From the NCBI GenBank assembly GCA_947168825.1, contig CAMVNH010000001.1:1-61752 (forward strand): a stretch of 61,752 bases of DNA. The letters run 5' to 3'. This DNA is from an uncultured Candidatus Saccharibacteria bacterium. Its GTDB lineage: Bacteria; Patescibacteriota; Saccharimonadia; Saccharimonadales; Saccharimonadaceae. A program made the position numbers and the translations under genes. Each line of letters opens with the position of its first letter. The stretch's first letter is position 1. Shown here one piece after another: positions 1 through 4,376 of this stretch. The notes under the pieces were generated by a model, which worked only from the letters and a program-made list of their open reading frames with translations, was not told the origin of the DNA and searched no databases.

Positions 1-39
1 TATTCCACTAACGGTCTAACTCTACGCCCTGTCTACTAG
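1..39 (+). CDS. 3' end of a probable DGR target gene (partial)
   Basis: Frame 1 reads YSTNGLTLRPVY and then TAG at 37-39. The NG-x-(S/T)-(I/L)-R-x-V ending matches the C-terminus typical of C-type-lectin-fold DGR targets and resembles the peptide encoded by the template repeat at 2187-2358 (NGQSIRCVSR). Nucleotide identity to that repeat over these 39 bases is poor, with many differences not at adenines. So this could be sequence beyond the variable repeat, or a target of another template. The position directly before the accessory and RT genes supports the call. Only the last 12 codons are visible, so the assignment is tentative. Confidence 0.4.
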   Translation, partial: YSTNGLTLRPVY

Positions 40-54
40 TTGGGGTACCATTCA

Positions 55-88
55 GGCCGCGCTAGCCTTTGCCGCAGCCTTGCCTCCC
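55..88 (+). repeat. Left copy of 34-nt inverted repeat flanking the DGR accessory/RT genes
   Basis: This GC-rich 34-mer begins GGCCGCGCTAGCC and ends TTGCCTCCC. It recurs in reverse complement at 2152-2185 with a single difference (C at 78 against T in the other copy, read in the same sense). It lies 15 nt after the target stop codon, whereas the other copy lies 1 nt after the stop of the template-repeat reading frame. Read in their own sense, both lectin-like ends are therefore followed by the same element. An IMH/IMH*-like role in retrohoming is inferred. Confidence 0.85.
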
Positions 89-91
89 TTT

Positions 92-110
92 GCGGCGACG
101 GAGTCGCCGC
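92..110 (+). other. GC-rich hairpin downstream of the DGR target
   Basis: A perfect 8-bp stem, GCGGCGAC paired with GTCGCCGC, closes a 3-nt GGA loop. It starts 3 nt after the 34-nt repeat at 55-88. Known DGRs (Bordetella phage type) need a short GC-rich hairpin or cruciform with an 8-bp stem just downstream of the variable repeat. No T-run follows, which argues against an intrinsic terminator. Confidence 0.6.
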
Positions 111-161
111 GGAATAAGGCAAGACGACAATTAAAATAAGGAAGCAAGAGAAAAAGTAAAG

Positions 162-1019
162 ATGACAAATGAAAACCAGGCTAAAATCCCAACCAGCAGA
201 ATGACGCCTGCGCAAAAGCGTAAACAACGGGCTGAGGAAGGTCGGAAAATGCGGGCGGCGTACTTCCGGTACAAAGAGGTAATCTTGCAGCGAGAAAAAG
301 ACAACGACGGAAAATTGTATCTCCTGAAGACGCACGACGGTTGGGGATGGAAAATGTTTTCACATTCAGCTTTGATCTACGCTCATGAAATTGCACCAAA
401 ATTGCAGCGAAACGTGAAGCTTCGAGAGGATACAGATTTCAGATGTAGGACCACGGACGGAGTGGTGACCATAAAATCTTTGGAAACCGTGAAAGAGGAG
501 CTGAAAATCATCAAGGCAGAAATGGAATTCGACAAGGACGGACTGGTGATTTTCAATCTGAAAGAAAAATTTTCGAAAGAGCAAATCGAGCAGATGCGCA
601 GAGATGATGAAAAAAGCTGGGAAGATGCGAATAAGCTCGTGGACGTGCCGAAGAGGATTTTCCCGATGCTAAATAAGGAACTCAAAGCAACGGAGAAAAT
701 TTTATATGAAAATGTGCGAAAATTTAATCCCTCGGCGAGAGTGCTGATTGGCGATAGAATTTTGCAGACCGTTTCTTCCATGATGGAAAATTTTATGATG
801 ACAATGAAGGGGCGAGGAATAGAAGTCGCCGAATGCCTAGAGTTTTTGATGGAAGAGGCGTACAGATTGGAGTCACAGCACGTGATAGTTTGCAACGAAA
901 AACTGACGGACGCCGCGCAAGCAAAGAAGATTGCCTTTCAAATTCAAGAGCTCGAAAGAAGAATCGACGAGGCGCTAGAAAAGGAAAAGAAGAAAAGTGG
1001 TACAAAGAAAAAAGCGTGA
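162..1019 (+). CDS. DGR accessory protein, MutS-I-like domain plus Avd-like helical bundle
   Basis: The protein has 285 aa. Residues 1-30 are basic. About 33-125 resemble the N-terminal mismatch-recognition domain of MutS (the stretch around GWGWKMFSHSALIYA), as in the MSL accessory class reported for some DGRs. About 165-275 form a helical region whose RVLIGDRILQTV core resembles the Avd four-helix bundle (family memory, not a search). The C-terminus is lysine-rich. Avd-type proteins bind the RT and template RNA during mutagenic cDNA synthesis. The gene overlaps the RT start by 23 nt, so the two are probably translationally coupled. The domain assignments are by eye. The location beside a DGR RT is the strongest support. 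Confidence 0.6.
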   Translation: MTNENQAKIPTSRMTPAQKRKQRAEEGRKMRAAYFRYKEVILQREKDNDGKLYLLKTHDGWGWKMFSHSALIYAHEIAPKLQRNVKLREDTDFRCRTTDGVVTIKSLETVKEELKIIKAEMEFDKDGLVIFNLKEKFSKEQIEQMRRDDEKSWEDANKLVDVPKRIFPMLNKELKATEKILYENVRKFNPSARVLIGDRILQTVSSMMENFMMTMKGRGIEVAECLEFLMEEAYRLESQHVIVCNEKLTDAAQAKKIAFQIQELERRIDEALEKEKKKSGTKKKA

Positions 1020-2124
1020 GGACGCATTACCTTTCGACGAATGGTTGCTACATGAGCTGACGGTAGCTTTTTTTGATGCTCGGAAGGGCAAACGAGATAC
1101 GGTGGACGAATTTCGATTCGAGATAAATTGGGAGAAAAATTTAATTCAGCTACGCGACGATATTTTAAATGGCGTCTATAAACCTAGTCGAGGGATTGCG
1201 TTTATTACTAGACGGCCGGTGATTCGTGAGATTTTTGCGGCGCCGTTTAGGGACAGGGTAGTGCATCATTTTTTGTTTAATATGGTGGCAGATTGGTGGG
1301 ATGTGAGGCTGATTAGAGATTCTTATTCATGTAGAAAAGGCAAAGGTACACTAGATGGGATTAAGCGGCTCGAGCATCACATTCGGGCGGCTTCTTGTAA
1401 CTACACTAAGAAAGCGTACGTGATTAAACTTGATATTCAGGGATATTTTATGAGCTTAAGTCGGCAAAAGCTTTACGAACGCATAAAATATGGCCTGAGG
1501 CGGCAATTTCATGATCAGCCAGCGACGCGGAATTTGATGGAATATGTTTGGAGGGAGGTGATTTTTGACGACCCGGTGAGTGGGGCGAAGCGGCGTGGAA
1601 AAATCTCGGATTGGGATATGTTACCAAAGAACAAAAGCTTGTTTAATCAGCCGCCGGGACAAGGGATTGTGATTGGGAATTTGTCATCTCAGCTGCTTTC
1701 TAATGTGTACTTAGACCAACTTGATAAATTCATAAGGTTTCAGCTTGGGTATAAACATTACGGAAGGTATGTGGATGATTTCTACATTGTGGTTCCCGAG
1801 GAGGAATATGCGCAAGCGAAAAAGGACGTGGGAATAATAGAATGGTTTTTGAAAAGTCATTTGGGGCTGGTTTTGCATCCGCGAAAAAGATATATGCAAG
1901 AAGTACATAAGGGCGTAGAATTTTTAGGGGCGGTAATTTATCCGAATCATAAGGTGCCGTCTAAGCGGTTTGTGAGGAATTTTTATGAGGCGGCAAATTT
2001 GGTTTCGGCTGGGCGAAAAGACGTCGATTCGATAGTCTCGTATCTTGGGCATTCAAAACATTTAAACGGGAAAAAATTGGCGGCAAGGGTGTTTGCCAGC
2101 CAGGGTTGGGAATATAAATTTTAG
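997..2124 (+). CDS. DGR reverse transcriptase
   Basis: This 375-aa RT copies the template repeat into cDNA with errors at adenines. Visible RT blocks are TRRPVIREIFAAPFRDRVV (about 71-89), DSYSCRKGKGT (108-118), motif A YVIKLDIQGYF with catalytic D146, motif B GQGIVIGNLSSQ (221-232), motif C YVDD (258-261) and GVEFLGAVI (306-314). The GNLSSQ form of motif B in place of the group-II-intron PQG..SP pattern is the hallmark of DGR RTs. No maturase or endonuclease domain is present. The ATG at 997 lies inside the end of the accessory gene. The template repeat lies 62 bp downstream, pointing towards the RT gene. Confidence 0.93.
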   Translation: MVQRKKREDALPFDEWLLHELTVAFFDARKGKRDTVDEFRFEINWEKNLIQLRDDILNGVYKPSRGIAFITRRPVIREIFAAPFRDRVVHHFLFNMVADWWDVRLIRDSYSCRKGKGTLDGIKRLEHHIRAASCNYTKKAYVIKLDIQGYFMSLSRQKLYERIKYGLRRQFHDQPATRNLMEYVWREVIFDDPVSGAKRRGKISDWDMLPKNKSLFNQPPGQGIVIGNLSSQLLSNVYLDQLDKFIRFQLGYKHYGRYVDDFYIVVPEEEYAQAKKDVGIIEWFLKSHLGLVLHPRKRYMQEVHKGVEFLGAVIYPNHKVPSKRFVRNFYEAANLVSAGRKDVDSIVSYLGHSKHLNGKKLAARVFASQGWEYKF

Positions 2125-2151
2125 AGATTGGTTGCGGGATGGGGTTGCTGC

Positions 2152-2185
2152 GGGAGGCAAGACTGCGGCAAAGGCTAGCGCGGCC
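2152..2185 (-). repeat. Right copy of the 34-nt inverted repeat (template side)
   Basis: This is the reverse complement of 55-88 with one mismatch. On the minus strand it begins 1 nt after the TAG (2187-2189) that ends the template-repeat reading frame. Together the two copies enclose the accessory and RT genes (about 2.1 kb) as an inverted pair. Confidence 0.85.
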
Positions 2186-2186
2186 A

Positions 2187-2358
2187 CTAACGACTGACGC
2201 ACCTAATAGACTGCCCGTTGTACTTGTTGTTGTTGTTCTGCGAGTTGACGTTCGACGTATTCAGGTTCATGTTGTACGCGTTGTTGTAGCTGTTCACCGT
2301 ACTAGACCAGAAGTTGCCGTTGCTACTAACGTCGTTCTGACCGCTGGTGTTGACGTTG
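2187..2358 (-). other. DGR template repeat (TR), inverted relative to the RT
   Basis: Read on the minus strand, this non-genic stretch encodes a lectin-like tail: GNVNTSGQ, then NGNFWSSTVNS, then NNNNKYNGQSIRCVSR and TAG. Eighteen asparagine codons occur and seventeen are AAC, the codon that adenine mutagenesis diversifies most without making stops. The FWSST and IRCV landmarks are those of C-type-lectin DGR variable regions. The minus-strand frame stays open to 2444, so the true 5' limit of the repeat is uncertain. The orientation is opposite to RT and accessory genes. The plus-strand frame over it is antisense and not a gene. Confidence 0.85.
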
Positions 2359-2577
2359 CCAGAGAGGGCGAACGCCGCAACCAATATATCGGAACTTGCA
2401 AAGCTGTGCAACCCCATGAACCCGAACTCAAGAACGCGCCACACTCACAAAGAGCAGCAACAGAGTAATTTTGCAACCATTGCTAAATCACGACATAGAA
2501 ACAGCTATATGAGCGGACGAGTTTCGAAAATGTTCGTTATTTTCTGGAAACTAGCCACAATTTTGCTTATATTTTTT

Positions 2578-2613
2578 GCAAAATTAAAGCCTCGTTAGAT
2601 TTTTCCAACGAGG
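2578..2613 (-). terminator. Intrinsic terminator of the small RNA at 2578-2690
   Basis: On the minus strand a 7-bp stem CCTCGTT/AACGAGG (2590-2613) is followed by CTTTAATTTT. It stops transcription before the template repeat. Confidence 0.7.
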
Positions 2614-2690
2614 GCTGTTTCGGCCTCCCGGCGGGTGTCTCCGAGTGGAGGACGTCCGATTTAGTCCCCGAGCCAGAGATCCATCCCGCT
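2578..2690 (-). ncRNA. Unidentified structured small RNA, about 110 nt
   Basis: A TATAAT box with the extended TG motif sits at 2697-2702, placing the start near 2690, and an intrinsic terminator ends it near 2578. The RNA folds as nested helices: GCGGG pairs with CCCGC, UCUC with GAGA, and GGGGAC with GUCCUC around a 10-nt loop. The terminator hairpin follows. No long reading frame is present. It does not contain the SRP, tmRNA, RNase P or hammerhead signatures I looked for. It could be a free RNA or a riboswitch-like leader without a gene. A role in the neighbouring DGR is only a guess. Confidence 0.6.
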
Positions 2691-2696
2691 AAAGAT

Positions 2697-2702
2697 ATTA
2701 TA
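2697..2702 (-). promoter_or_regulatory. -10 box (extended TGcTATAAT) for the small RNA
   Basis: A perfect TATAAT on the minus strand is preceded by TGC. A weak TTTAAA at 2720-2725 occupies the -35 position with a 17-nt spacer. The predicted start is the A of AGCGGG at about 2690. Confidence 0.65.
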
Positions 2703-2762
2703 GCAGGAAACTGTTGCTTTTTAAAACCATATTTTTAGTTTTACACAAGGGCAGTGATGGCG

Positions 2763-4258: not shown

Positions 4259-4376
4259 GGCCCTTCGGGGCCCCGTATGGAGGGAAACCTCCACCACAAA
4301 TGGTTGTTTTTGAGAGTAACCAGGTGTTTTTAAATATATATATGACCTCTCCGGGACACTTATGGCTCTGTTCCGG
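4259..4376 (+). promoter_or_regulatory. Structured RNA element between rsmH and the ftsL-like gene
   Basis: Three strong helices occur on the plus strand. GGCCC-UUCG-GGGCC is at 4259-4272, UGGAGG-GAAA-CCUCCA at 4278-4293, and CCGGGACA paired with UGUUCCGG at 4351-4376 with a 10-nt loop. The UUCG and GNRA tetraloops are canonical only in this orientation, so the RNA is read with the operon. No U-run follows, so it is not a simple terminator. The 233-nt gap between the small ORF and the next gene contains nothing else I recognise. Confidence 0.6.

Follow-up and report, generated by a model that had tools for sequence, protein, structure and literature searches.

The window (the whole 61,752-nt stretch of DNA that was analysed) is the start of contig C1 in the 578-kb, 8-contig genome of a very small, host-associated Saccharimonadota (TM7) species, an uncultured Candidatus Saccharibacteria bacterium whose named relatives come in their majority from ruminant gut samples. 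It opens with a cassette (hereafter cassette 1) that is a genuine diversity-generating retroelement (DGR) by every defining feature that can be tested by sequence or structure comparison. The template repeat (TR) of this DGR is very probably a separate transcription unit that converges on the operon encoding the Avd-type accessory protein and the reverse transcriptase (RT). Such an architecture differs both from the layout of the BPP-1 DGR and from the published group of inverted DGRs, and it is conserved through the genus. This reading is based on differences between template and targets that are confined to adenines, on the conserved layout, on a DGR-type RT, on an Avd fold, and on hairpins present behind intact targets only. 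It is further based on the enrichment of promoter-like sites upstream of the TR, on a promoter-like site and a leader shared by the two TRs of the genome (TR1 and TR2), and on the breakage of assemblies on the target side.

Along the window, the Avd-type gene is followed by the RT gene on the plus strand and then, 27 nt after the RT stop codon, by TR1 on the minus strand. The features of the cassette are as follows:
Positions 1 to 54, plus strand: probable IS3-family right end, judged by identity to the C5 start and the C6 end and by likeness to an IS3 element in the congener G243.
Positions 55 to 88, plus strand: orphan homing site (IMH) that once belonged to a target, with 97% identity to the sequence flanking TR1 on its 3' side and with a pyrimidine-rich end.
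Positions 92 to 110, no strand assigned: GC-rich hairpin with an 8-bp stem and the loop GGA, the same as behind the C4 target.
Positions 162 to 1019, plus strand: accessory protein, with an N-terminal domain (about residues 12-158) and an Avd four-helix bundle (about residues 160-280), from homologues and predicted structure.
Positions 997 to 2124, plus strand: DGR reverse transcriptase (IVIGNLSSQ, YVDD; the best solved relative is the BPP-1 RT).
Positions 2152 to 2372, minus strand: TR1, antisense to the RT strand and including the 3' copy of the homing site (IMH*), delimited by alignment to a target.
Positions 2373 to 2692, minus strand: predicted 5' leader of the TR RNA, of which 2583-2692 is strongly structured and homologous to the TR2 leader.
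Positions 2697 to 2725, minus strand: promoter-like site of the TR (TTTAAA, 17 nt with TG, TATAAT), conserved upstream of TR2.

No part of a target gene is present in the window, only the homing site and the hairpin that belonged to one. The earlier note on this DNA had described a complete DGR cassette, and its DGR identity stands, as do the RT with GNLSSQ and YVDD motifs, the accessory protein (a 285-aa open reading frame, ORF) and the AAC-rich template on the strand opposite to the RT. The converging transcripts that it proposed are likewise supported, as units predicted from sequence. Completeness does not hold, any adjacent target being cut off from its homing site, and what had been read as a lectin-like target tail at 1-39 belongs to the probable IS3-family end.

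A search of the genome with TR1 gave five other places (E 1e-22 to 1e-76, well outside what chance would give) and the short match at window positions 55-88, and the differences at these places are concentrated on the adenines of TR1. The target on contig C4 differs from TR1 at 23 positions, all of them A, over the first ~205 nt, and at 4 non-A positions at the extreme 3' end. In a second cassette, on contig C2 (L019), the plus strand holds target, Avd and RT, and the minus strand holds TR2. TR2 and its adjacent target differ 23 times over 225 nt, in every case at an A; as A's occupy 65 of the 225 positions, the chance of this result is about 4e-13 by a simple calculation. Two other targets have changes at other bases: the C3 target, of TR2-like origin, shows 8 non-A changes and the deletion of one codon, and the C1:167k target, of TR1 origin, shows 8 non-A changes. 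For 77 TR-target pairs in the relatives, 1626 of 4485 A's were changed (36%), versus 287 of 12849 other bases (2.2%). From these patterns we infer the mutagenic copying of a TR RNA and its transfer to the variable repeat (VR) of the target. The earlier note had let its interpretation depend on such genes, and genes elsewhere in the genome do differ from the template almost only at adenines.

The target proteins have a C-terminal FISUMP (Fibrobacter succinogenes major paralogous) domain, which is C-type-lectin-like, and an N-terminal hydrophobic stretch. Family and hydrophobic N-termini together support the targets as putative surface-binding proteins, which had been suggested before. FISUMP proteins encoded at C2:118k and on C8 were rejected as current targets of TR1 or TR2, having no DNA-level match. 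In 27 of 73 cassettes the contig ends at most 2.5 kb upstream of the RT, on the target side, versus 7 in which it ends downstream; this circumstantial evidence fits hypervariable or multi-copy targets, and copies of insertion sequences (IS) located where the target ends may add to it. At one locus of a related genome (L062, G303:C2), six lectin-type units resembling variable repeats lie in tandem downstream of an RT whose frame contains a TAA, and a template was not recognised at the locus.

The RT motifs IVIGNLSSQ and YVDD are invariant or nearly so across 12 relatives. The closest solved structure is the RT of the BPP-1 DGR (8ub7, E 3.7e-27), a group II intron RT being retrieved only at E 1e-3. 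The RT is considered a member of the DGR lineage on the basis of the (I/V/L)GxxxSQ motif, the YxDD motif and the best solved relative; in this search of structural relatives it falls nearest to the BPP-1 enzyme and not to retrons or group II introns, the other point on which the earlier note could have failed.

The structure of the accessory protein was predicted from 59 homologues, with a predicted local distance difference test score (pLDDT) of 94.4. Residues 160-280 superpose on BPP-1 Avd (4dwl) with Z 14.3 and a root-mean-square deviation of 1.9 over 109 residues, and the TM-score normalised by target length is 0.79-0.83; helical bundles score high per se in such comparisons, and Avd chains are nonetheless among the top rows. 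The C-terminal half of the protein is thus predicted to have the Avd fold. The N-terminal ~155 residues (window 162-635) form a separate alpha/beta domain that is conserved across the genus and fused to Avd.

The layout was compared across relatives, RT homologues with E <=1e-20 being present in 75 of 393 genomes of the order. A scan of the genome collection with the RT alone gave nothing that could be confirmed; an alignment used as the query instead gave more than 550 relatives. In the genus, 71 of 81 cassettes have a TR in opposite orientation downstream of the RT, with a median of 93 nt from the RT stop codon to the TR reading frame; in the others the TR is on the same strand (5), elsewhere (1) or not recognised (4). 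Of these 71 inverted cassettes, 57 have an upstream target on the strand of the RT and 10 a downstream target on the strand of the TR, one cassette having both. The same downstream-inverted arrangement was found in 28 of the 30 cassettes having a TR among 35 further distinct cassettes from named genomes, and RTs about 50% identical from other families have their TR on the RT strand. When TR orientation was mapped as a label on the RT tree, 5 changes were required versus 11.4 with shuffled labels, so that the flip appears to be old in the clade, with a few reversals. The targets located downstream on the TR strand at L036, L037, L045, L054 and L110 reproduce the published group-4 layout within the same RT clade. 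Same-strand TRs at L082, L101, L039, L049 and L050 are nested among inverted relatives, which indicates that the template module flipped more than once.

Characterised DGR RTs err opposite template A (PMC12875486). As the changes fall on the A's of the target coding sense, an A-specific RT implies that the template RNA comes from the strand opposite to the RT message, so that enzyme and template would be transcribed separately and towards each other. Consistent with such a unit, 68 loci contain 47 TR-strand TATAAT sites at a distance of 200-400 nt upstream of the TR, versus about 5 expected (shuffles gave ~18 per 700 nt). The promoter-like site is common to TR1 and TR2, and their structured leaders are homologous, with 74% column identity (fold z -3.4 for TR1 and -1.1 for TR2). 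Mild structure was also seen in the TR tail, where the mean z is -1.2 versus 0.0 in a control stretch. The structured element upstream of both TRs (window 2583-2692, minus strand; L019 8992-9137, minus strand) is possibly the leader of the template RNA or a separate small RNA. An Rfam search of the leader gave no family, and the leader was not found at the DNA level in 39 other genomes.

Several observations weigh against a template transcribed on its own. The opposite strand of the region upstream of the TR is likewise rich in promoter-like sites. Within the TR1 leader, a hairpin at 2590-2613 resembles a terminator, its T-run being weak, and could halt transcription before the TR is reached; it was rejected as a plain terminator between leader and TR because its TR2 counterpart has no T-run, and a putative structural role is likelier. 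Terminators between RT and TR, although enriched, occur in only 15 of 69 loci, so that they were not retained as a general shared feature, and readthrough and antisense effects are possible. Finally, no conserved spacer was found when the RT 3' end and the TR tail were examined in relatives: the 27-nt gap between TR1 and the RT stop codon cannot fit a spacer of BPP-1 length, and a spacer hidden antisense in the RT 3' end was discarded, as no excess of synonymous conservation was detected in 71 RTs.

TR and target remain homologous for ~30-45 nt beyond the stop codon, up to and including a pyrimidine-rich tract. GC-rich hairpins with 8-bp stems are located 3' of the C4 target, of the C2 target and of the orphan homing site in the window; none was found 3' of TR1, TR2 or the C1:167k target. 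The loop of the C2 hairpin is GACA, which is consistent with the GRNA loops of phage DGRs, and a hairpin behind the VR has a known role in BPP-1 (PMC3240598). In the relatives, stems of at least 10 bp stand behind 18 of 70 VRs versus 8 of 72 TRs. In the C1:167k target (L021), which has neither homing site nor hairpin, homology ends after position 4268, 4 nt past the stop codon (TAGTGGC), and this end adjoins the spot corresponding to the position of IS3 in C1. That this target drifts at non-A sites while lacking both elements is as the DGR mechanism predicts.

Window positions 1-54 are repeated exactly at the start of C5 (L207 2-55) and at the end of C6 (L208, last 54 nt), before three different sequences. 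The 54-nt end abuts a TR1-type homing site in C1, a TR2-type homing site with a hairpin and a broken avd start in C6, and in C5 a third type of homing site that is common to the C8 target. In G243 the same end (27 of 30 bases) is found ~80 nt downstream of an IS3 transposase ORF (NF033516, 265.8 bits); this element (L216, G243:C23 235-1990) has a matching left end, with the transposase between TGA...TCA terminal inverted repeats, and its left end immediately follows a lectin-type target, at 9 nt from the stop codon. By these sequence matches, window 1-54 is probably the right end of an IS3-family insertion sequence, of which only the terminal 54 nt were assembled in this genome, in three copies, the remainder lying off contig C1. 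This explains the start of the contig at position 1 and implies that the adjacent target, should it still exist, is separated from its homing site. All three right ends lie 1-2 nt past the position of the homologues' stop codon, at three different homing sites, which suggests a target preference of the IS or a repeated decoupling of targets and points to a route by which targets get frozen or cut loose from their cassettes. On the minus strand, the C6 end (L208) looks like the remnant of a third cassette, with IS3 end, TR2-type homing site, hairpin and truncated avd start.

The mechanism that we favour, with a template unit converging on the Avd-RT operon, would proceed as follows. RT and Avd would be produced from a plus-strand message, and the TR RNA would start at the minus-strand promoter near 2697 and carry a structured leader of ~320 nt. 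RT-Avd would copy this RNA with random bases opposite A, and the cDNA would replace the 3' end of genes for lectin-fold surface proteins in which homing site and hairpin are retained. Cassette 1 would act in trans, its adjacent target having been split from the homing site by the IS3 element, and the C4 target carries a clean copy with A-only changes. A more specific version can be put forward only tentatively and is somewhat doubtful: the template would have become, in a lineage of DGRs, an autonomous non-coding RNA gene with its own promoter and structured leader, converging on the RT operon; RT-Avd would now recognise the 5' leader, or use the extra N-domain of the accessory protein, in place of a 3' spacer of the BPP-1 type; and IS3 would insert at the junction of target stop codon and homing site.

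The severing of the adjacent target by an IS end, together with a TR1-type target (C1:167k) that is devoid of homing site and hairpin and has changed at non-A sites, would also be expected if cassette 1 were a relic, with an inactive RT and inverted template, the A-only differences dating from past activity or being the work of the C2 cassette. This is unlikely given that the RT1 and Avd1 frames are open, with 78% and 50% identity to their C2 copies, and that the C4 target retains homing site and hairpin and shows zero non-A change from TR1 over ~205 nt, though TR1 and TR2 differ at many sites. The position of the TR just downstream of the RT means that readthrough of the RT message would cover it, and the template could then be co-transcribed with the RT on the plus strand, the enzyme mutating opposite a non-A base (T in plus-strand terms). 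Such an enzyme would depart from all characterised DGR RTs, and as the same-strand relatives L089, L097, L104 and L108 show the identical pattern of A's in the coding sense, a switch of base specificity would be needed at each flip of the TR; with the enrichment of TR-strand promoters added, plus-strand co-transcription is highly improbable. General RT models do match the enzyme, weakly (group II intron model TIGR04416, 76.8 bits for a cut-off of 300 bits; PADLOC RT models also), as they might if a retron, group II intron or defence RT merely adjoined an unrelated repeat. We give this virtually no credence: among solved structures the BPP-1 RT is by far the closest, the SQ motif and the Avd fold are present, and the confinement of TR-target differences to A refutes it.

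Compared with known systems, the converging arrangement shares with the BPP-1 DGR the RT family, the Avd fold, the A-specific TR-to-VR changes, the 3' homing site and the GC-rich hairpin behind the VR only. In BPP-1 a single strand carries avd, TR, spacer and RT, and the spacer separates TR from RT, whereas here the TR follows the RT in opposite orientation at a distance of 27 nt, the accessory protein has an extra N-domain, and the targets of cassette 1 are remote. The group 4 'inverted' DGRs of Schillinger et al. 2012 (Shewanella baltica OS155, Vibrio sp. RC586 and Photobacterium angustum S14; PMC3521204) also have the TR opposite to the RT strand, RT mRNA and template RNA being separate molecules. 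In that group, TR, VR and target are all opposite to the RT, whereas here mostly the TR alone is flipped and target and RT share one strand (57 of 71), as do the target of the C2 cassette and the orphan homing site of the window. A flip of the TR only was in 2012 a theoretical possibility with one partial case, a DGR with two remote opposite-strand VRs (PMC3521204). Yan et al. 2019 list an RT-inverted pattern, G5, which is over 20 times less frequent than the BPP-1 layout (PMC6642488); it likewise has RT and TR in opposite orientation, but the RT is there inverted relative to TR and VR jointly. Roux et al. 2021 placed most DGRs of the candidate phyla radiation (CPR) in RT clade 2, in a text that uses none of the words orientation, strand and inverted (PMC8144416); the present cassettes resemble these in their occurrence in Patescibacteria, several per genome, with lectin-fold targets. 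The conserved TR-only flip is provisionally considered as new, and an earlier description is possible.

To judge from the ~100 cassettes, a DGR can have as its template an RNA of its own, transcribed towards the RT gene, with the target still in the orientation of the RT. Template, enzyme and target would thus be naturally uncoupled, and as no spacer of BPP-1 length fits between TR and RT, the question arises which part of the template RNA serves to recruit RT-Avd and to prime the cDNA. For targeted mutagenesis, the arrangement also suggests a compact design in which the template RNA stands alone.

Structural matches of the accessory N-domain are weak and tied (Z 4-6) between GFRP, KCTD and the N-terminal domain of MutS/MSH2. 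Its identification as MutS domain I, which has no Pfam or sequence support, was therefore not accepted, and this kinship is a lead that is suggestive only. MutS-like accessory genes are listed for some DGRs. MutS_I exceeds the Pfam cut-off in 0 of 61 genomes (G000 and 60 of the order), versus 11 of 14 control genomes, and MutS-type mismatch repair seems, by this profile search, to be absent from these 61 genomes; if so, the changes made by DGRs would stay uncorrected. A 14-nt piece of the TR1 3' flank (GCTAGCCTTTGCC...) occurs antisense in the 3' end of RT2 (L019 8463-8476, minus strand), either by chance or as a remnant.

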